From Kyrpidia tusciae DSM 2912 (GTDB taxonomy: Bacteria; Bacillota; Bacilli; Kyrpidiales; Kyrpidiaceae): a stretch of DNA of 64,000 bases. The DNA lies in the NCBI RefSeq assembly GCF_000092905.1, contig NC_014098.1:1488001-1552000 (forward strand). The letters are read 5' to 3'. The notes under the pieces were generated by a model. It worked only from the letters and a program-made list of their open reading frames with translations. It ran no database searches and had not been told where the DNA came from. Position 1 is the first letter of the stretch. Each line of letters starts with the position of its first letter. The position numbers and the translations under genes are program-made. Positions 27,990-48,482 of this stretch are shown here, piece after piece.

Positions 27990-28988
27990 GTGGCGGACGT
28001 CTTGTCGCAACGAGAGATCGACGCCCTTTTACAGGCATTGAGTTCCGGCGAGGTTTCGGCGGAGGCCATGAAGGAGGAAGAAGAGCAGCGCAGGATCCGT
28101 GCTTATGACTTCAAGCGGGCCATGCGATTTTCGAAAGATCAACTGCGCAGTCTGACCCGGATCTACGAGAACTACGCGCGGATGCTCAGCACGTATTTTT
28201 CGGCACAATTGCGGACTTGGATGCACCTGGATGTCATCTCGGTCGAGCAACTGCCCTACGAGGAGTTTATTCGCTCCATGCCGCAGCTTTCGACCCTGCT
28301 CGTGGTGGATCTGGCTCCGCTCAGCGGGCGGTGGGTGATCGGGATTGGACCGGACGTCGCCTTTGTCATGCTCGATCGCCTCCTCGGGGGGCCAGGGTTG
28401 GAACTGGCCGGCGCCCGGGCGTTTACGGAAATTGAGACCACGGTGTTCGAACGGTCGTGGAGCCGATCTCTCGGGGTGTTGGGCGATGCGTGGAAGGGCA
28501 TTGTCGAGGACTTGCGGCCGACTCTGTCTTTTATCGAATTCAATCCTCAGTTTCTCCAGATTGCGGCGCCCAACGATACCGTGGCCGTGGTCTCCGTCAG
28601 CATGCGGATTATGGAGACCACCGGGTTAATGCACATTGGTATGCCCCATCTGACCTTGGAGCGGTTGTTGCCGAAACTGAGTTCCCAGCACATGCTGGGC
28701 ATGGGGCAGGCGGGCCGGGCGCTGGATCCTGCGAGAGAGGAGGCTCTGCGGGAACGCCTGCGGGCGGCTCCGGTGGAAATCCGGGCGGTTTTGGGAAGGA
28801 CCTCGATCGATTTCTACGACTTGATGCACCTGGCCGCCGGGGATGTCATCCCCCTTCATCAGTCCGTGAACCGGCCCGTGGAGATCTATGTCGGGGACAG
28901 GGTGAAATATCTTGGCCGCCCCGGAGTGGATCACGGTCGGCTCGCGGTTCAAATTACAGAGATCGCCGATGACGAAAGGGGGGAATAA
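27990..28988 (+). CDS. fliM: Flagellar motor switch protein FliM
   Basis: C-ring switch protein that binds phospho-CheY. 332 residues from GTG 27990. The N-terminal CheY-binding peptide is LSQREIDALLQAL (residues 5-17). The middle CheC-like domain and the C-terminal SpoA/FliN-like domain (VEIRAVLGRTSIDFYDLMHLAAGDVIPL) follow. Its stop lies one base before the fliY start. Confidence 0.96.
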   Translation: MADVLSQREIDALLQALSSGEVSAEAMKEEEEQRRIRAYDFKRAMRFSKDQLRSLTRIYENYARMLSTYFSAQLRTWMHLDVISVEQLPYEEFIRSMPQLSTLLVVDLAPLSGRWVIGIGPDVAFVMLDRLLGGPGLELAGARAFTEIETTVFERSWSRSLGVLGDAWKGIVEDLRPTLSFIEFNPQFLQIAAPNDTVAVVSVSMRIMETTGLMHIGMPHLTLERLLPKLSSQHMLGMGQAGRALDPAREEALRERLRAAPVEIRAVLGRTSIDFYDLMHLAAGDVIPLHQSVNRPVEIYVGDRVKYLGRPGVDHGRLAVQITEIADDERGE

Positions 28989-28989
28989 G

Positions 28990-30177
28990 GTGTCCGATAT
29001 GCTATCTCAGGATGAAATCGACGCGCTTCTTCGGGGGGGAGGGGCCATGACCTCTCCCCAACAAGGAGAAATCCTGAGCGAGATGGAGCGGGACGCCCTC
29101 GGGGAGATTGGCAACATCAGTTTCGGAACCGCCGCCACGGCCCTGTCTACCCTTTTGAACAGACGGGTGGAAATCACCACGCCAATGGTGAGTGCGGCCA
29201 AAACCCAGGAACTGGGCAGCGAATTTCCCGTGCCCCATGTTGCGGTGCAGGTCCAGTATACCGCCGGTTTTGAGGGGCTCAACGCTTTGTTTATCCGCCC
29301 GGAGGATGCCCGGATCATTGCCGATCTCATGATGGGCGGTCAAGGAGCTCCCCCGGAAGGCGAGCTCGATGAATTGCAGCTCAGCGCAGTGAGTGAAGCG
29401 ATGAACCAGATGATGGGGTCGGCGGCCACCTCCATGTCCCAGATGTTTAACATGAAAATCAACATTTCGCCGCCAACGGCCCGAATTGTGGATTTTCAAA
29501 AGGAACCGCCGGGGGAGCTGTTTTCCGGCGAAGAGGTCGTGGTGAAAGTGGCCTTTCGCCTCATCGTCGCCGATCTCATCGATTCGCACATCATGCAGCT
29601 CATTCCTCTCAGCTTCGCCAAGAAAATGGTGACGGCGCTACTCGGGCCGCAGGACAGCGCGAATGCTCCTGGCCCGGAGCCGTCGCAAGCCTCGGGAGCC
29701 CAGCCGTCCACGGGGACCGGTGCTCCGTCCCCTGGGGAGGTTTCCGGCCAGCAAACCGTCTCCTCCCAAGAGAAGGCTGGGGCGGATCGGCCCAACGGTT
29801 ATCAGGAAGCCGGGACGTCCCAAACCGAGGCGGCCGCCGGCGCGCAGACCGTCGTCAAGCCGGTGGAATTCGGCCCGCTCCATTCCCCTGCTGCCGAAGC
29901 GCCCCGGACGGATAACCTCGATCTTTTGCTCGACGTATCCCTCACGGTGAGTGTCGAGCTTGGCCGCACCCATCAGTCTGTTCGGGAGGTTCTGAGCTGG
30001 TCCTTGGGATCTGTGGTGGAATTGGATCGCCTGGCCGGGGAGCCGGTGGATATTTACGTCAACCAGAAATTGATCGCAAAAGGGGAAGTTGTGGTCATCG
30101 ACGAAAACTTTGGGGTGCGGGTGACGGACATTGTACACCCCCGGGATCGAATGCGCGGTGTACAGCAGGGAGGGTGA
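28990..30177 (+). CDS. fliY: Flagellar motor switch phosphatase FliY
   Basis: Fused CheY-P phosphatase and FliN-like C-ring subunit. 395 residues from GTG 28990, 6 bases after GGGGGG. Starts with a CheY-binding peptide LSQDEIDALLRGG. Both CheC-type active-site helices keep their Glu-x-x-Asn: ALGEIGNISFGTAATAL and SEAMNQMMGSAATSM. A 90-residue linker rich in Ala, Pro, Gly, Ser (about 220-310) leads to the C-terminal FliN/SpoA domain (LDVSLTVSVELGRTHQSVREVLSWSLGSVVELDRLAGEPVDIYVN region). Replaces the separate fliN of Gram-negative bacteria. Confidence 0.95.
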   Translation: MSDMLSQDEIDALLRGGGAMTSPQQGEILSEMERDALGEIGNISFGTAATALSTLLNRRVEITTPMVSAAKTQELGSEFPVPHVAVQVQYTAGFEGLNALFIRPEDARIIADLMMGGQGAPPEGELDELQLSAVSEAMNQMMGSAATSMSQMFNMKINISPPTARIVDFQKEPPGELFSGEEVVVKVAFRLIVADLIDSHIMQLIPLSFAKKMVTALLGPQDSANAPGPEPSQASGAQPSTGTGAPSPGEVSGQQTVSSQEKAGADRPNGYQEAGTSQTEAAAGAQTVVKPVEFGPLHSPAAEAPRTDNLDLLLDVSLTVSVELGRTHQSVREVLSWSLGSVVELDRLAGEPVDIYVNQKLIAKGEVVVIDENFGVRVTDIVHPRDRMRGVQQGG

Positions 30178-30181
30178 GAAG

Positions 30182-30544
30182 GTGAGTCGCAAAGTTCTCG
30201 TCGTAGACGATGCCGCGTTCATGCGCATGATGATCAAGGAGATTCTGACCAAGCACGGGTACGAAGTGGTGGGCGAAGCGGTGAACGGCATTCAGGCTGT
30301 GGAAAAGTTTCAGGAACTTCGACCGGATCTCGTCACCCTCGACATTACGATGCCCGAGATGGACGGGATTGAGGCGCTCAAGCGGATCCGGGCCATCGAC
30401 CCGGAGGCGAAAGTGATCATGTGTTCGGCAATGGGGCAGCAGGCGATGGTGATCGACGCGATACAGGCCGGGGCCAAGGATTTTATCGTAAAGCCGTTTC
30501 AGGCGGATCGCGTTTTGGAAGCGGTCCGCAAGACTTTGGGATGA
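30182..30544 (+). CDS. cheY: Chemotaxis response regulator CheY
   Basis: Single-domain receiver that binds FliM/FliY when phosphorylated by CheA. 120 residues from GTG 30182. Acidic pocket Asp9-Asp10, phospho-acceptor Asp54 in LVTLDITMPEMDG, switch Ser82 in MCSAMGQ and Lys104 in FIVKPF. The start is set by GGGAGGGTGAGAAG immediately upstream; longer versions of the frame overlap fliY. Confidence 0.97.
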   Translation: MSRKVLVVDDAAFMRMMIKEILTKHGYEVVGEAVNGIQAVEKFQELRPDLVTLDITMPEMDGIEALKRIRAIDPEAKVIMCSAMGQQAMVIDAIQAGAKDFIVKPFQADRVLEAVRKTLG

Positions 30545-37269: not shown

Positions 37270-38154
37270 ATGGATCAGGCATCCGAGTTGCGCAAAAGGA
37301 TGGCCCATCGGTCCGGGCCCCGGGGAGTCTCGTTGAAGACCGCGGCGGTGACCAGCGGGAAGGGAGGAGTGGGAAAGTCCAACGTGGCCGTCAATGTCGC
37401 CTTGGCTCTTCAACAGGAGCACAACAACACCCTCATCTTGGACACCGACGTCGGATTTGCCAACGTGAATGTTTTACTGGGAAGTGGTGCGGGCCGAACT
37501 TTGCTGGATTTGGCCCAGCCCGGGGTTTTGGCTTCGGATGTCGTCCAGACCGGCCCCTTAGGGATTTCCTGGATTTCAGGGGGTACGGCCTTGCCCGATT
37601 GGATCCAGCTTTCCAGGGATCAAGTCAAGGTGTGTTTCGATAAATTGATGGATTTGGAATCGACGCTCGACTGGGTCATCGTCGATACCGGCGCTGGACT
37701 GAGTGAGTCCAGCCTCCACCTGTTGGAAAGTGTGGATCAGATTCTGCTTGTGACAACCCCGGAACCCACAGCCCTTGCGGACGCCTACGCCATGATCAAA
37801 GTGTTGGTTCGGCGGTCCCCAAGCGCCCGTATTCGGATCGTGGTCAACCGATGCCGGACGTTTTCGGAGGGGATACAGACGTTTCAACGATTGGTCGAGG
37901 TTTCGAAAACCTTTCTTTCCTTCGAGCCGGGTGTGATGGGGTATATTCTCGAGGATCCCGCGGTGGGACGGGCTGTTTTTCGACAAACGCCCTTTCTTCT
38001 CAGTGCTCCCGATAGCCGGGCTGCCCAGTGTGTACGACAAATCGCCCGCCGCCTGATGGGCGGTGAGGAGGTCGCTCCGGCGGAGAGCCCCCCGAGTCGG
38101 CGCGGCTGGCGCGAGTTTATCTGGAAACTGCAGCATGCCCTCGGGCGCGGATAA
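37270..38154 (+). CDS. flhG: Flagellar number regulator FlhG (YlxH), MinD-like ATPase
   Basis: MinD/ParA-type ATPase that works with FlhF. 294 residues. The first 20 residues (MDQASELRKRMAHRSG) resemble the FlhF-activating helix with Gln and basic residues. Deviant Walker A TSGKGGVGKSN (Lys31, Lys36), DTDVGFANVNVLLG and VIVDTGAGLSESSL follow. A membrane-targeting helix is plausible at the very C-terminus (REFIWKLQHALGRG). The cheB start lies inside its last 20 bases. Confidence 0.93.
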   Translation: MDQASELRKRMAHRSGPRGVSLKTAAVTSGKGGVGKSNVAVNVALALQQEHNNTLILDTDVGFANVNVLLGSGAGRTLLDLAQPGVLASDVVQTGPLGISWISGGTALPDWIQLSRDQVKVCFDKLMDLESTLDWVIVDTGAGLSESSLHLLESVDQILLVTTPEPTALADAYAMIKVLVRRSPSARIRIVVNRCRTFSEGIQTFQRLVEVSKTFLSFEPGVMGYILEDPAVGRAVFRQTPFLLSAPDSRAAQCVRQIARRLMGGEEVAPAESPPSRRGWREFIWKLQHALGRG

Positions 38155-38740
38155 AAGGTGGGGCGCGGCGGAGCTCGTCGTGATGGGGGCATCTACGGGG
38201 GGACCCACCGCCCTTGCGTTCATCTTGTCAGGACTTCCGAAAACCTTTCCGCTGCCCATTGCTGTGGTGCAACATATGCCCGAGGCCTTCACCCGGATTT
38301 TTGCCGCCAGGCTCAACCAAGAGTCGTCACTTCAGGTGTTTGAGGCCGCTCAGGGAGATCGACTGAAGCCGGGAACCGTGGCCGTTGCCCCTGGGGGTCG
38401 ACAGATGAGAGTCCATCGGGATCCTGAAGGTTGGTTTGTACAACTTGGGGAAGAGACACCGTGGCACAACCATGTCCCTTCCGTGGATGTGCTGTTTGAC
38501 TCGGCGGCCAGAGCGGCTCATCGACCGGTGATCGCCGTCCTCTTGACGGGCATGGGGAAGGACGGGGCCGAGGGGATGGAGGACATTCATCGCCGGGGGG
38601 GAATCACCATCGCCCAGTCTAAGGAGAGTTCTGTGGTGTTCGGAATGCCCCGGGCCGCCATCGAACGCGGATGTGTGGATTACGTTGCAGATCTAGAGGA
38701 AATCCCCGCCCTCCTGATGAAGTTGTCCATGAACAGGTAG
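38135..38740 (+). CDS. cheB: Chemotaxis protein-glutamate methylesterase CheB, catalytic domain only
   Basis: Removes methyl groups from (or deamidates) chemoreceptors. 201 residues from ATG 38135, overlapping flhG by 20 bases. The catalytic triad is complete: Ser20 in VMGASTGGPTAL, His47 in VVQHMPEAFT, Asp143 in LLTGMGKDGAEGM, with spacing matching the E. coli enzyme. The N-terminal receiver domain and linker of ordinary CheB (about 350 residues) are missing; the upstream sequence in this frame overlaps flhG and has no receiver motifs. Activity may therefore not be controlled by CheA phosphorylation. Confidence 0.92.
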   Translation: MPSGADKRWGAAELVVMGASTGGPTALAFILSGLPKTFPLPIAVVQHMPEAFTRIFAARLNQESSLQVFEAAQGDRLKPGTVAVAPGGRQMRVHRDPEGWFVQLGEETPWHNHVPSVDVLFDSAARAAHRPVIAVLLTGMGKDGAEGMEDIHRRGGITIAQSKESSVVFGMPRAAIERGCVDYVADLEEIPALLMKLSMNR

Positions 38741-38751
38741 GGGGTGGTACG

Positions 38752-40854
38752 GTGGAGAACAGTGAATACCTCGTCATGTTTATTGAAGAAACGAAGGAGC
38801 ATCTGCAGCAACTGAACGAACAACTGCTGGTTCTCGAGCGGGATGCCTCGGACCATGAGGCGATCCACGCCGTTTTTCGATCGGCGCACACCATTAAGGG
38901 GATGGCGGCGACCATGGGTTTTGAGCCCATGGTATGGGTCACGCACGACATGGAGAATGTCCTGGACGAGATCCGAAACGGTCGGGCGGCCATCACCCCG
39001 GACCACATGGATGTGCTGTTCAAAGCCGTCGACCTGTTGGAAGCTCAACTCGCGGCGGTGGAAGAAGGAGGGGACTTGGCCGAGATTCCCACCGAGGACG
39101 TGGTGCAAGGCCTTCAGCGGCTTTTGGATGAATCCCGGGGCGGGACCGGAGCTTCCGACGTCGGATCTGGCTCTGCCGGTAAGGGGTCTTCGGCGGGGCA
39201 GACGGGAGGTGGGCGGGAGATGGACGGGTCCCAAGGGTCGGCCCTCGTCCTGGACGCGTACCAAAAGTCTGTCGCCGAAGAGGCCCGGCGGGAAGGCTTA
39301 CAGGTGGTGAGCATCACCGTCCGGCTCGATGAAGGATGTGTCTTAAAGGCTGCCCGGGCCTACATGGTGGTGGACGCCTGTGAACAATTCGGGGAATTGA
39401 TCAAGGTGGATCCTCCGGTGGAGGAACTGGAACAGGGCAATCTGGATCTGGACATCCGCCTGCTTCTCATTCTGAAACAAGAAACCCCCGAAGCCGTGGA
39501 GAAAGCACTGCTCGGGATTTCGGAGATCCGGGAGGTGGTGGTCAAACCTTGGGCTGGAACCACCGAGAACGGATCATCGCCCGAACGTCTCGCCCCAGGC
39601 GGCCGGGGAGAAGGAAGCGGGTCGGGAAGTGAGTCGGATTCTCCCAAGGGCGTACGCACGACAGCTCGGGGGGATGCCCCTGAAGAAAGGGCCACGAATC
39701 ACCGGACGCTCAAATCGGTCCGGGTGGACATCGATCGGTTGGACACCCTCATGAACCTGTTCAGCGAATTGGTGATCGACCGAACCCGGATCGAAGAGTT
39801 GGCGAAGCAAACCGGACATCAGGACCTTCTGACAACAGTCGAGCACATGGCGAGAATCAGCGCCGACCTTCAAAACTTGGTGATGACGATTCGCATGGTG
39901 CCCGTGGACACGGTGTTCAATCGCTTCCCGCGCATGGTCAGGGACCTGGCCCGGGAGTTGGGGAAGAGTGTCGATTTTGTCGTCCGCGGCGGGGATACGG
40001 GCCTAGACCGTACGGTCATTGATGAGATTGGCGATCCCCTGGTGCACCTGCTGAGGAACGCCTTAGATCACGGAGTTGAGACGCCGGAGGAGCGCCGGAA
40101 ACTTGGCAAACCCGAGGCGGGGCGAGTGGAACTGGTGGCGTTTCATTCCGGAAACCACGTGTTTATCGAGGTGTCTGACGATGGCCGGGGCGTGGATCGC
40201 GAGAAGGTGATTCAAAAAGCTGTGCAGCGGGGGCTTGTTGACCGCAATGACGCGGCTTCGATGACGGACGGACAGGTTTTTGACCTTCTTTTCCAACCGG
40301 GATTCAGCACGAAAGACACGGTCAGCGACGTTTCCGGACGGGGCGTGGGTTTGGATGTTGTGAAAAGCAAGTTGGAGCAGGTCGGGGGAAAGGTCACGGT
40401 GGAATCCAGTCCGGGTCGAGGGACGAAATGGGTGATTCAATTACCTCTGACGCTCTCGATCATTCAAGCCATGTTGGTCAGCCTGGCCGGCGAAAAATAT
40501 GCCGTTCCCCTTCACTCCATCGTGGAGACGGCCGTCGTGAAGCGAGGGGACATCCGGGACCTTCACGGGCAGCAGGTGATCCCCTTTAGAGGGCGGGTCA
40601 TTCCACTGATCGATTTGGAACGGTTGTACGAGCTTCGACGCCAGGAAACCAAAGATGAAGAAAATGTCCTGATCGTGCGCCGGGGGGACAGGTTCGCTGG
40701 GTTTATCGTGGATGAGTTTCTCGGTCAACAGGAAATTGTGCTGAAGTCTCTCGGGCGGTATTTGCAACAAGTGTTTTCCATCGCCGGTGCCACGGTGCTC
40801 GGTGATGGGCAGGTGGCGCTAATCATCGACTGCAATGCTTTTCTTGCGGCGTGA
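38752..40854 (+). CDS. cheA: Chemotaxis histidine kinase CheA
   Basis: Receptor-coupled kinase that phosphorylates CheY. 700 residues from GTG 38752. Domains: HPt with phospho-His46 (FRSAHTIKGMAAT), a linker, a P2-like CheY-binding region (about 165-270), an acidic/Gly linker, dimerisation helices (SVRVDIDRLDTLMNLFSELVIDR), ATPase domain with HLLRNALDHGVETPEER, DDGRGVD, GRGVGLDVVKSKLEQVGG and the CheW-like P5 domain from about 570. cheW follows 15 bases downstream. Confidence 0.97.
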   Translation: MENSEYLVMFIEETKEHLQQLNEQLLVLERDASDHEAIHAVFRSAHTIKGMAATMGFEPMVWVTHDMENVLDEIRNGRAAITPDHMDVLFKAVDLLEAQLAAVEEGGDLAEIPTEDVVQGLQRLLDESRGGTGASDVGSGSAGKGSSAGQTGGGREMDGSQGSALVLDAYQKSVAEEARREGLQVVSITVRLDEGCVLKAARAYMVVDACEQFGELIKVDPPVEELEQGNLDLDIRLLLILKQETPEAVEKALLGISEIREVVVKPWAGTTENGSSPERLAPGGRGEGSGSGSESDSPKGVRTTARGDAPEERATNHRTLKSVRVDIDRLDTLMNLFSELVIDRTRIEELAKQTGHQDLLTTVEHMARISADLQNLVMTIRMVPVDTVFNRFPRMVRDLARELGKSVDFVVRGGDTGLDRTVIDEIGDPLVHLLRNALDHGVETPEERRKLGKPEAGRVELVAFHSGNHVFIEVSDDGRGVDREKVIQKAVQRGLVDRNDAASMTDGQVFDLLFQPGFSTKDTVSDVSGRGVGLDVVKSKLEQVGGKVTVESSPGRGTKWVIQLPLTLSIIQAMLVSLAGEKYAVPLHSIVETAVVKRGDIRDLHGQQVIPFRGRVIPLIDLERLYELRRQETKDEENVLIVRRGDRFAGFIVDEFLGQQEIVLKSLGRYLQQVFSIAGATVLGDGQVALIIDCNAFLAA

Positions 40855-40869
40855 GAGGGGGCATTCCGG

Positions 40870-41349
40870 ATGGAGCAGAAATCTCAAGAACCGGATCGAG
40901 AAGTCAAAGTGATCGTTTTTCAATTGGCGACAGAGGAATACGGGGTCGAGGTTTCTCAAGTTCTGTCTATTGAACGCATGCAAAAGATCACCCGGGTTCC
41001 CCGGACGCCCGCCTTCGTTAAAGGGGTCATCAATCTGCGCGGCGTGGTGACGCCCATTATCGACTTGCGGGCAAGGTTTGGCCTCCCCGAAGTGGAGTAC
41101 ACGGACGATACCCGGATCGTCGTGGTGGCTGTCGGGGAAATGGAGGTGGGCTTAGTGGTGGATGCGGCCAATGACGTCATCGACGTCCCCATGTCTCGGG
41201 TGGATCCCCCTCCGGCCGTGGTGGGTGGTGTCAAGGCGGAGTATCTTCGCGGAGTGGCAAAACTGGACGACCGACTGCTGGTCTTGCTCAATCTCGACCG
41301 GGTGCTGAGCGTCCAGGAAGTGGCCCAGCTCGGCGCGATGTCTTGGTGA
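40870..41349 (+). CDS. cheW: Chemotaxis coupling protein CheW
   Basis: Adaptor between chemoreceptors and CheA. 159 residues. The SH3-like double barrel shows VKVIVFQLATEEYGVEVSQVLSIERMQKITRVPRTPAFVKGVINLRGVVTPIIDLRARFGLP in pieces from 13 to 75, including the conserved NLRG and PIIDLR motifs. ATG 40870 follows GAGAGGGGG. Confidence 0.96.
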   Translation: MEQKSQEPDREVKVIVFQLATEEYGVEVSQVLSIERMQKITRVPRTPAFVKGVINLRGVVTPIIDLRARFGLPEVEYTDDTRIVVVAVGEMEVGLVVDAANDVIDVPMSRVDPPPAVVGGVKAEYLRGVAKLDDRLLVLLNLDRVLSVQEVAQLGAMSW

Positions 41350-41356
41350 GGCGCCG

Positions 41357-41962
41357 GTGCAACCGCTCGGCGATCGACACCTCGATGCCCTCCGGGAAGT
41401 GGGAAACATCGGGGCGGGCCACGCGGCCACGAGCTTGGCCCTTCTCCTGCAGCGACCGGTTCGGATCACGGTGCCCACGGTTCAGGTGCTGGATTTTGAT
41501 CACGTGGTGGACGCCGTGGGCGGCGCAGAGGACGTCGTAGTGGGCACCTATTTCCGCATCGGAGGAGATTATCCCGGCAACCTTTTTTTCATCATTCCAG
41601 CCTGTTCGGCCCGAGCCGTACTCCGGGCCATGTGGACGGAGGGCGACTTCGGTGACGACCTTCAAAGTGAGATGGCCTTATCCGCTCTGGGAGAAATCGG
41701 CAATATTCTGATATCCGCATATCTCATCTCGCTGAGTGATTTCACCCACGGCAAGGTGGAGACTTCTGTACCCGCCGTGGCCGTGGACATGGCCCAGGCG
41801 ATTTTAGAAGTCGGGATGCTCACCGCGGATGCCGACCAATGCCTGATCGTGCACACCGGCGCCCATATCGAAGAATTGGATGTCTGGTGCCATTTTCTCC
41901 TCGTGCCCGACCCCGACAGTGTGTTGCCTTTGCTGACGGCCTTGGGGGTGGGCGGAGAGTGA
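41357..41962 (+). CDS. cheC: CheY-P phosphatase CheC
   Basis: Dephosphorylates CheY-P and binds CheD in the Bacillus adaptation system. 201 residues from GTG 41357. Both pseudo-symmetric active-site helices retain Glu and Asn: LREVGNIGAGHAATSLA (Glu14, Asn17) and LGEIGNILISAYL (Glu113, Asn116). cheD overlaps its stop by 4 bases, matching their physical interaction. Confidence 0.95.
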   Translation: MQPLGDRHLDALREVGNIGAGHAATSLALLLQRPVRITVPTVQVLDFDHVVDAVGGAEDVVVGTYFRIGGDYPGNLFFIIPACSARAVLRAMWTEGDFGDDLQSEMALSALGEIGNILISAYLISLSDFTHGKVETSVPAVAVDMAQAILEVGMLTADADQCLIVHTGAHIEELDVWCHFLLVPDPDSVLPLLTALGVGGE

Positions 41963-42447
41963 TCGCCGGCCAAGTGGTCCATGTCGGCATGGCAGATTTA
42001 AAAGTGGTCCGTTGTCCGGATCGCCTGCGATCTGTGGGTCTCGGCTCCTGCGTGGGGGTTGCCCTGTGGGATCCGCAAACAAAAGTGGCGGGGCTGGTTC
42101 ACATTATGCTCCCTTCCGCCGAGGGGTTTACTGACCCCCCCAGGGCGAAGTTCGCCGATACGGGGGTGGACTGGCTGGTGGAAATGATGCAGCAAAACGG
42201 CGCCCGGGTCGAACGTTTACGGGCCAAAATGGCCGGAGGTGCCCAGATGTTCGCGTTTGCCGGGAAAAACGATTTGCTGAAGATTGGCCCCCGGAATGTC
42301 GACGCCTGTCGCAGGGCCCTGGCCAAGTGGGGGATTCCAATGGTTGGGGAGGATGTCGGCGGTTCCACCGGGAGGACCATCGAGTTGCACAGCGAAGACG
42401 GCCGTTTGTGGGTGCGCACGGTGCGGGGGGGACTGATCGTGCTATGA
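41959..42447 (+). CDS. cheD: Chemoreceptor glutamine deamidase CheD
   Basis: Deamidates receptor glutamines and stimulates CheC. 162 residues from GTG 41959, overlapping cheC. The catalytic pair is Cys31 in VGLGSCVGVALWD and His48 in AGLVHIMLP. Later KMAGGAQMF and NVDACRRALAKWGIPMVGEDVGGSTGRTI regions are typical. The following gene overlaps by 4 bases. Confidence 0.96.
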   Translation: MIAGQVVHVGMADLKVVRCPDRLRSVGLGSCVGVALWDPQTKVAGLVHIMLPSAEGFTDPPRAKFADTGVDWLVEMMQQNGARVERLRAKMAGGAQMFAFAGKNDLLKIGPRNVDACRRALAKWGIPMVGEDVGGSTGRTIELHSEDGRLWVRTVRGGLIVL

Positions 42448-45671: not shown

Positions 45672-46367
45672 ATGGCCATTATTTCGATGAAGCAGCTTTT
45701 AGAGGCCGGGGTCCATTTTGGCCACCAAACCCGCCGGTGGAACCCGAAGATGCAAAAGTACATTTTCACGGAGCGCAACGGGATTTATATCATCGATCTG
45801 CAGAAGACAGTGAAAAAGGTCGAAGAGGCTTATCAATTCGTTCGCTCCCTTGCTGAGGAAGGCAAGACCCTGCTTTTTGTGGGAACGAAAAAACAGGCCC
45901 AGGATTCGGTGCGCGAAGAAGCGGAACGATGTGGGATGTTTTATGTCAATCAGCGTTGGTTGGGAGGTACGCTGACCAATTTTCAAACGATACGCCGGCG
46001 GATTGACCGCCTGCACGAGTTGGAGCGGATGGAGGAAGACGGCACTTTTGAGGTGTTGCCAAAAAAAGAGGTTAACCTTTTAAGAAAAGAAAAGGAGCGC
46101 CTGGAGAAGTTTTTGGGCGGGATCAAAGGGATGAAAGATCTGCCCGGAGCTCTGTTCGTCATCGACCCCCGGAAAGAGCGGATTGCCGTGGCGGAGGCGC
46201 GCAAACTCGGGATTCCGATCGTCGCCATCGTGGACACGAACTGCGATCCCGACGAAATTGACTACGTCATCCCAGGCAACGATGATGCCATCCGGGCGGT
46301 GAAACTGCTTACCGCGAAGATGGCGGACGCCGTCCTGGAGGGGAGCCAAGGCGAACAGACCGCGTGA
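45672..46367 (+). CDS. rpsB: 30S ribosomal protein S2
   Basis: Small-subunit ribosomal protein. 231 residues from ATG 45672 behind GAGGAGGATCAAG. It opens [27 protein letters not shown] and carries [48 protein letters not shown] and [22 protein letters not shown], all S2 hallmarks. A terminator-like hairpin separates it from tsf. Confidence 0.98.
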
Positions 46368-46381
46368 TCACAGAGTTCCGA

Positions 46382-46425
46382 GGGTGGTTGAAGAGGGCCG
46401 CCCGCCCCCGTCCACCCTTTTTTTT
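46382..46425 (+). terminator. Terminator or attenuator between rpsB and tsf
   Basis: GGGTGG (46382-46387) pairs with CCACCC (46412-46417), with a GC-rich inner region, followed by eight T. It begins 15 bases after the rpsB stop and ends 40 bases before tsf, so it would set the S2 to EF-Ts ratio by partial termination. Confidence 0.7.
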
Positions 46426-46464
46426 GTGATAATTTCCGATGAACTCGTAAGGAGGAGTGGGATC

Positions 46465-47115
46465 GTGGCGATTACTGCCGCACAGGTGAAAGAATTGAGG
46501 GATCGAACCGGCGCCGGGATGATGGACTGTAAAAGGGCGCTCACCGACGCCGAAGGGGACATGGATAAGGCCATTCAACTGTTGCGGGAGAGAGGACTGG
46601 CGGCCGCCGCGAAAAAGGCCGGTCGGGTGGCAACGGAGGGGTTGGTGGAAGCGTATATTCACGGAGGAGGGCGCATCGGCGTCCTTGTCGAGGTGAACTG
46701 CGAAACGGACTTCGTCGCCAACACCGATGAATTCCGGGGCCTGGTCAAAGACATCGCGATGCAAGTGGCTGCGGCCCGTCCGGAATACGTCCGGCGGGAC
46801 GAGGTTCCCGCCGAGGTGATTGAAAAGGAGAAGTCCATTTACCGCGCCCAGGCCGAGGCGGAAGGAAAGTCGGCGGCCATCGTGGAACGCATGGTGGAGG
46901 GGCGGTTGGAGAAGTTTTTCAAAGAAGCTTGCCTGTTGGAACAACCTTTTATCAAAAATCCCGATATCACGGTTGAACAATTGGTGAAAGAAAAGATCTC
47001 GAAGATCGGGGAGAACATTTCGGTGCGCCGATTCGCCCGTTTTGAACTGGGCGAGGGCTTGGAGAAAAAAGAAGAAAACTTTGCCGAAGAGGTCATGGCT
47101 CAGGTCAAACGGTGA
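46465..47115 (+). CDS. tsf: Elongation factor Ts (short form)
   Basis: Guanine nucleotide exchange factor for EF-Tu. 216 residues from GTG 46465 behind TAAGGAGGAG. N-terminal UBA-like domain [37 protein letters not shown], then [24 protein letters not shown] and the core helices with [33 protein letters not shown]. Length is well below the roughly 290 residues of Bacillus EF-Ts and close to the short Thermus/Thermotoga type, with the second core subdomain reduced. Confidence 0.96.
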
Positions 47116-47175
47116 GGGGCGCCCGACCGCTGGCCGGGGGGGTGCAACCGATAAGTCGGGGTCGAGGTCTGATGA

Positions 47176-48482
<1,307 letters not shown>

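Follow-up and report, generated by a model that had tools for sequence, protein, structure and literature searches.

The chemotaxis methylesterase CheB of Kyrpidia tusciae DSM 2912 consists of a catalytic domain only, and on sequence comparison we put the probability at roughly 0.8 that it is a genuine methylesterase/deamidase working without phosphorylation, that its receiver was deleted, that feedback would run through CheY~P, CheC and CheD, and that CheB phosphorylation is a dispensable, repeatedly lost feature of such systems. The window, by which we mean the whole stretch of 64,000 nt that was analysed (NC_014098.1, positions 1,488,001 to 1,552,000), carries cheB at 38135..38740 on the plus strand, as a frame of 201 aa with an ATG start and a TAG stop. 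A Pfam scan of the product (E<=0.001) recovers a single family, CheB_methylest (PF01339), over residues 15-193, the match covering positions 1-173 of the 174 in the profile with 219.6 bits against a cut-off of 24; the original prediction of a CheB reduced to its methylesterase domain is borne out. The NCBIfam models of full-length CheB align through their C-terminal halves only, NF001965/PRK00742 over 166-353 of 357 (239.9 bits, below its cut-off of 293) and the other model over 151-336 of 340, again with a score under the cut-off. The canonical two-domain CheB has an N-terminal receiver with a phosphorylatable Asp, and the Kyrpidia protein does not.

The catalytic domain itself is well preserved at its active site. 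Specifically, Ser20, His47 and Asp143 align with the solved CheB catalytic domains 1CHD, 3SFT and 1A2O, in which we take the corresponding residues to be the catalytic ones, and the Ser-His-Asp triad, which had been read as intact from the sequence beforehand, is invariant across 31 receiver-bearing and 13 receiver-less alignment rows. Of 46 columns that are otherwise conserved, the domain departs from the consensus at 4-5 in family f1, which comprises the window and three relatives (G001-G003), and flhG-linked copies with a receiver do so at 0-2; the f1 deviations could mean an altered function of CheB. Two other receiver-less catalytic domains (G037 and G330) deviate at only one of the 46. 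The column changed in most receiver-less lineages (seven of nine) is residue 136, where six of the changes are the conservative one from Ile to Leu, and a surface change common to the receiver-less catalytic domains was sought in the alignment with no convincing result.

The DNA 5′ of cheB is occupied by a full-length gene for a ParA/MinD-type ATPase (37270..38154, plus strand), presumably flhG, which has a ParA match at residues 24-262 of 294 as well as MinD-type matches, and which ends in GWREFIWKLQHALGRG. This gene occupies the DNA as far as the catalytic domain and shares its last 20 nt with cheB (overlap 38135..38154, plus strand), so that the predicted start of cheB inside flhG holds, and because of this overlap translational coupling of cheB is probable. 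The gene order is flhA-flhF-flhG-cheB-cheA-cheW-cheC-cheD, in which FlhA and FlhF, like FliP, RpsB and SigD below and elsewhere, were named by reading the sequences and not by family search. All of the following genes are on the plus strand. CheA (38752..40854, with a GTG start at 38752 and domains scanned from 38755) has Hpt (HTIKG), P2, dimerisation, ATPase and CheW domains, and no Response_reg match was obtained in it at E<=0.001. It is followed by cheW (40870..41349, domain match), by cheC (41357..41962) with two E-x2-N-x22-P motifs and by cheD (41968..42447) with GLGSC and HIMLP motifs, while cheY, a stand-alone receiver, lies at 30131..30544; the last three are supported by Pfam and NCBIfam matches, and the start codons of cheD and cheY are provisional. 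The gene at 28912..30177, which we take to be fliY, encodes CheC-like and FliN domains according to Pfam, and its real start is probably near MLSQDEID. CheC, CheD and FliY keep their motifs, on the assumption that E-x2-N-x22-P is the CheC active-site motif and that GLGSC and HIMLP hold the Cys and His of CheD. On the minus strand, a 554-aa open frame at 46309-47973 lies opposite genes of the other strand.

The window therefore holds the components of a Bacillus subtilis-type system, with CheC, CheD and FliY alongside CheA, CheW and CheY in a flagellar operon. Its CheV branch was not found in the genome: a search for CheW domains gave two matches, confined to CheA and CheW, and hence there is no CheV. 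Genome-wide, CheB, CheR and CheA are each matched once, and there are ten MCP matches. Methylation-like motifs, according to a pattern that we assume to be the appropriate one, occur in all six of the MCPs L031-L036, which makes them plausible substrates for CheB. The remaining four were kept out of this count, L037 and L038 because their frame length differs between readings and L039 and L040 because the hairpin pattern was not found; L040 has no such motif, and L038 and L039 have one each.

Searches for a receiver or for another CheB were carried out over the surroundings of the gene and over the whole genome, and found neither. No receiver was found near cheB in any open frame of at least 60 aa. 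The PF01339 profile matches the one-contig genome (3,384,766 bases) only once, in the gene described here, and a second complete cheB in the genome is thus rejected. The genome encodes 18 receivers, and a CheB-receiver HMM was used to score them. Of the 25 rows behind this HMM one (L048) is itself receiver-less, so that its 29.9-bit match is a match to itself. The best score is that of CheY, at 98.5 bits, followed by 67.1 bits, whereas CheB receivers themselves score from 117 bits and mostly around 200; by this scoring there is no CheB-type receiver in the window or among the 18. A second short stand-alone receiver, L059, resembles Spo0F. The lack of a receiver domain that had been put forward for this CheB stands, and both findings that had been named as fatal to it, a hidden upstream receiver frame and a second cheB, fail to appear.

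Several other explanations of the short gene have to be weighed against this evidence. That a sequencing or assembly error conceals an upstream receiver frame has a precedent in one relative (G052), in which a receiver immediately precedes the catalytic frame but is read in a different one; in Kyrpidia the upstream DNA is flhG, the nearby open frames hold no receiver, and all four genomes of family f1 have the same layout, a concordance that already refutes the idea and leaves it with a negligible chance. The G052 locus (L080 / L020), with CheB receiver and catalytic domain in different frames, itself looks like a frameshift or sequencing error and is unlike a true loss. It is also highly improbable that cheB is decaying and in the process of being lost. 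The domain loss, the lack of a strong ribosome-binding site ahead of the ATG and some divergence at conserved columns might all be read in that sense, but dN/dS against the three family relatives is close to 0.10 at all three distances (0.107, 0.097 and 0.101), within the range of the neighbouring genes (0.046-0.218, leaving out cheD and rows with no usable dS). In addition, the triad is invariant, and the gene is kept in four of four f1 genomes, each time with the ATG start and the 20-nt flhG overlap, and in family f7 at all 17 loci read that are linked to flhG. The receiver-less CheB is a real protein under purifying selection.

Granted a functional protein, its control might still be exerted in trans, by a stand-alone receiver (CheY or another) that binds the catalytic domain in the manner of the lost receiver. 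A receiver can act on an output domain from a separate protein, and CheY is, at 98.5 bits, the receiver in the genome most like a CheB receiver; against this, no CheB-type receiver is left in the genome. The CheY proteins of receiver-bearing relatives obtain about the same score with the HMM (92-101 bits); a takeover of the receiver's role by CheY is thus not visible, and we regard control in trans as improbable. A somewhat less remote, though still unlikely, explanation is that CheB has mainly a housekeeping role, in receptor deamidation or in non-adaptive methyl turnover, and that adaptation rests on CheC/CheD alone. The methylation-like motifs in six of six MCPs (L031-L036) and the presence of CheD, the other deamidase, speak for such a role, but CheR has been kept, and for this reason the methylation cycle is probably still run. 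The preferred reading is accordingly that of a selected, unphosphorylated CheB, and its distribution among relatives bears on how it arose.

The survey covered 61 genomes (that of Kyrpidia and 60 relatives), 44 of which have a CheB match, at 54 places in total, and the DNA was read at 42 of these. Among 27 operons with FlhA, which were picked to include short frames and are not a random sample, ten have a receiver-less cheB behind flhG, and in the other 17 the receiver of this cheB is present. The receiver-less operons are those of the window and G001-G003 (f1), G009 and G032 (f7), G037 (f28), G004 (f2), G057 (f32) and G330 (f56, taken from the class survey); that is, besides f1 and f7, four further lineages of the class have a receiver-less CheB at the same operon position. 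In these counts G052, with an open frame of 217 aa, is treated as receiver-bearing, its receiver being in another frame. Left out were G304, in which only 282 nt of contig precede the match and which is labelled receiver-bearing in the catalytic-domain tree, G270 (L096), at a contig edge, and G005 (L047), a partial match with no hit. Family f7 has CheB in 34 of 41 genomes, at 45 places, of which 39 were read and six, with frames of 1213-1273 aa, were left out. All 17 flhG-linked cheB loci read in this family are receiver-less (G009, G032 and 15 more), and cheB genes located elsewhere than behind flhG include some with and some without a receiver. Very long frames with a CheB catalytic domain, of 1182-1239 aa, also occur in f7 (G063:C1:719195, G091:C10:121232 and G226:C25:2313); long frames of this kind are perhaps large fusion proteins distinct from the chemotaxis CheB.

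In a wider scan with the receiver-less alignment, an in-frame receiver is present at 75 of the best 80 named loci. The five exceptions are the loci of a Kyrpidia sp. (L130), of Gorillibacterium timonense (L208), of an Azoarcus MAG (L197) and of a Campylobacteraceae MAG in which an N-terminus of 148 aa is unmatched (L181), together with a locus at a contig edge (L163). The receiver-less architecture is thus uncommon among the best 80 named loci and regular in f1 and f7. In the receiver-bearing operons of which the full length was read, cheC and cheD are retained as well. Judged by size, CheV is absent from nine of the ten receiver-less genomes (G000-G004, G032, G037, G057 and G330), and the tenth, G009, may or may not have it. 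A CheV-sized protein is likewise lacking from no fewer than seven genomes with a receiver-bearing CheB (G006, G010, G015, G023, G025, G026 and G042); therefore neither feature is tied to the loss of the receiver. Individual operons have peculiarities of their own. In G037 (L075, 9545-11850) the receiver-less operon has no cheA between cheB and cheW, its cheC is split over two frames, and the sole match to the CheA dimerisation domain in that genome is elsewhere (C1:1301733). G009 (C30, C66 and C87) has no match to this domain, with CheW matches in 304-aa frames beside CheW, and its cheA may be a broken gene or one that the assembly has fragmented.

The comparison of the cheB region in relatives that had been proposed thus yields a layout common to f1 and, within the class, a pattern of repeated loss. 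In a tree of concatenated FlhA, FliP, FlhF and RpsB from the 27 operons (ten receiver-less, 17 with a receiver), five changes are needed, and the well-supported branches alone force at least four; eight rows of this tree, f1 included, have an unusual letter make-up. Placing all receiver-less rows in one clade is rejected by the AU test (p-AU 1.9e-9), as is uniting G330, G004 and G057 (p-AU 4e-4) and, more weakly, uniting f1, f7 and G037 (p-AU 0.03), the groups in the two smaller tests having been chosen after the tree was known. One ancient loss of the receiver is rejected by this tree and the AU test taken together. The tree of the catalytic domain itself, with 45 rows of which 13 are receiver-less, some of them lacking flhG linkage, has eight changes, at least four of them forced. 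It agrees with the neighbour-gene tree in placing G330 with f4 and G057 with G022, and since both stand beside the same receiver-bearing relatives in either tree, the pattern is not explained by the spread of a single receiver-less gene, which is rejected on this evidence. The junctions between flhG and cheB differ as well, at -20 (f1), -4 (f7), +20 (G037), +74 (G004), +13 (G057) and +66 nt (G330), which is as expected from independent deletions. These results fit a history in which related lineages of Bacilli lost the CheB receiver several times. Families f1 and f7 are joined with 97/97 support on long branches in the neighbour-gene tree and are separate in the CheB tree, and the losses in Kyrpidia and f7 may have been one or two.

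The likely course of events would be that receiver and linker were deleted in an ancestor, with the catalytic domain left directly behind flhG. In CheB the catalytic domain is held back by the receiver for as long as CheA has not phosphorylated the latter. Taken together with the literature values listed in PMC5809149, 15-fold when the catalytic domain is isolated and 100-fold when CheB is phosphorylated, this implies that the Kyrpidia enzyme should run without CheA. With the inhibitory receiver gone, its activity would be constant and intermediate, set by its abundance and by the state of the receptor substrate. With no receiver and no second CheB there is no CheA-to-CheB phosphorylation, and as CheV is missing too, CheY is the only recognised chemotaxis target of CheA that is left; CheA would then phosphorylate only CheY in the pathway. 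Phosphorylation-dependent feedback would pass through CheY~P, CheC and CheD, already present in the B. subtilis-type system, in which CheB phosphorylation would be dispensable and could be lost time and again. B. subtilis is described in PMC3513319 as having three adaptation systems, namely methylation, CheV and CheC/CheD/CheY~P. With the methylation branch cut off from CheA and CheV missing, only the last of these is still fed by phosphorylation, and it is plausible that CheC/CheD/CheY form the controlled adaptation branch in Kyrpidia, as originally predicted.

The same prediction held that the CheA-dependent feedback loop of adaptation would be missing. This is right as far as CheA-to-CheB phosphorylation is concerned, but its loss need not abolish methylation-based adaptation (PMC5809149). 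According to that paper, E. coli with no more of CheB than the catalytic domain can adapt precisely by way of activity-dependent feedback, a role of the phosphorylation feedback in precise adaptation had been ruled out, and such cells have a bimodal spread of kinase activity, with cell-to-cell variability. The role of this feedback is called there a long-standing open question, and the role of CheB phosphorylation in B. subtilis is given as unknown in PMC340952.

Receiver-less CheB as such is known. PMC9321776 lists it among the markers of the F3 class of chemosensory systems, that of Campylobacterota, and PMC340952 notes it for C. jejuni. The F3 systems share this trait with Kyrpidia and differ from it in their cheVAW operon and in the extra receiver of their CheA (PMC9321776), whereas Kyrpidia has a CheA with no receiver and has no CheV, its cheB lies in the flhA-flhF-flhG-cheB-cheA-cheW-cheC-cheD order, and the loss of its receiver arose within Bacilli. 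CheBc of E. coli has the same domain content, with the phosphorylation feedback cut and precise adaptation possible (PMC5809149, as above), but is a laboratory construct, unlike the natural CheB of Kyrpidia; E. coli also lacks CheC and CheD (PMC340952). In FrzG of Myxococcus xanthus, a CheB homologue, the receiver is described as largely degenerate in PMC4546325, and in Kyrpidia it is deleted. This leaves B. subtilis, which shares CheC, CheD, CheY and FliY with Kyrpidia. Its operon order is presumably the same, and its CheB, we assume, has the receiver that the Kyrpidia protein lacks; CheV provides a further phosphorylated branch there (PMC3513319), which is missing in Kyrpidia. Among the open-access papers listed, as judged by titles and the openings of abstracts, none was found to deal with loss of the CheB receiver in Bacilli, and the available parts of PMC7698151 and PMC2829493 hold nothing on a receiver-less CheB. 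The architecture is therefore known, and its repeated origin in B. subtilis-type (CheC/CheD) systems seems to be new.

We hold more tentatively, at a little under even odds, the broader view that phosphorylation control of CheB is dispensable in Bacilli with CheC/CheD and has been discarded at least four times among them, and that in Kyrpidia the CheY~P/CheC/CheD loop would be the sole phosphorylation feedback remaining from the three adaptation systems of B. subtilis. The repeated natural loss of the receiver suggests that the phosphorylation loop is dispensable in B. subtilis-type systems, and relatives with and without a CheB receiver offer a natural comparison for what this control loop does. 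In receiver-less Bacilli one would expect either a bimodal spread of kinase activity, like that of E. coli cells with the catalytic domain alone, or a substitute, for which CheC/CheD is the obvious candidate. If this is true, Kyrpidia would represent a pared-down natural system, with the CheY~P/CheC/CheD loop open to study on its own.
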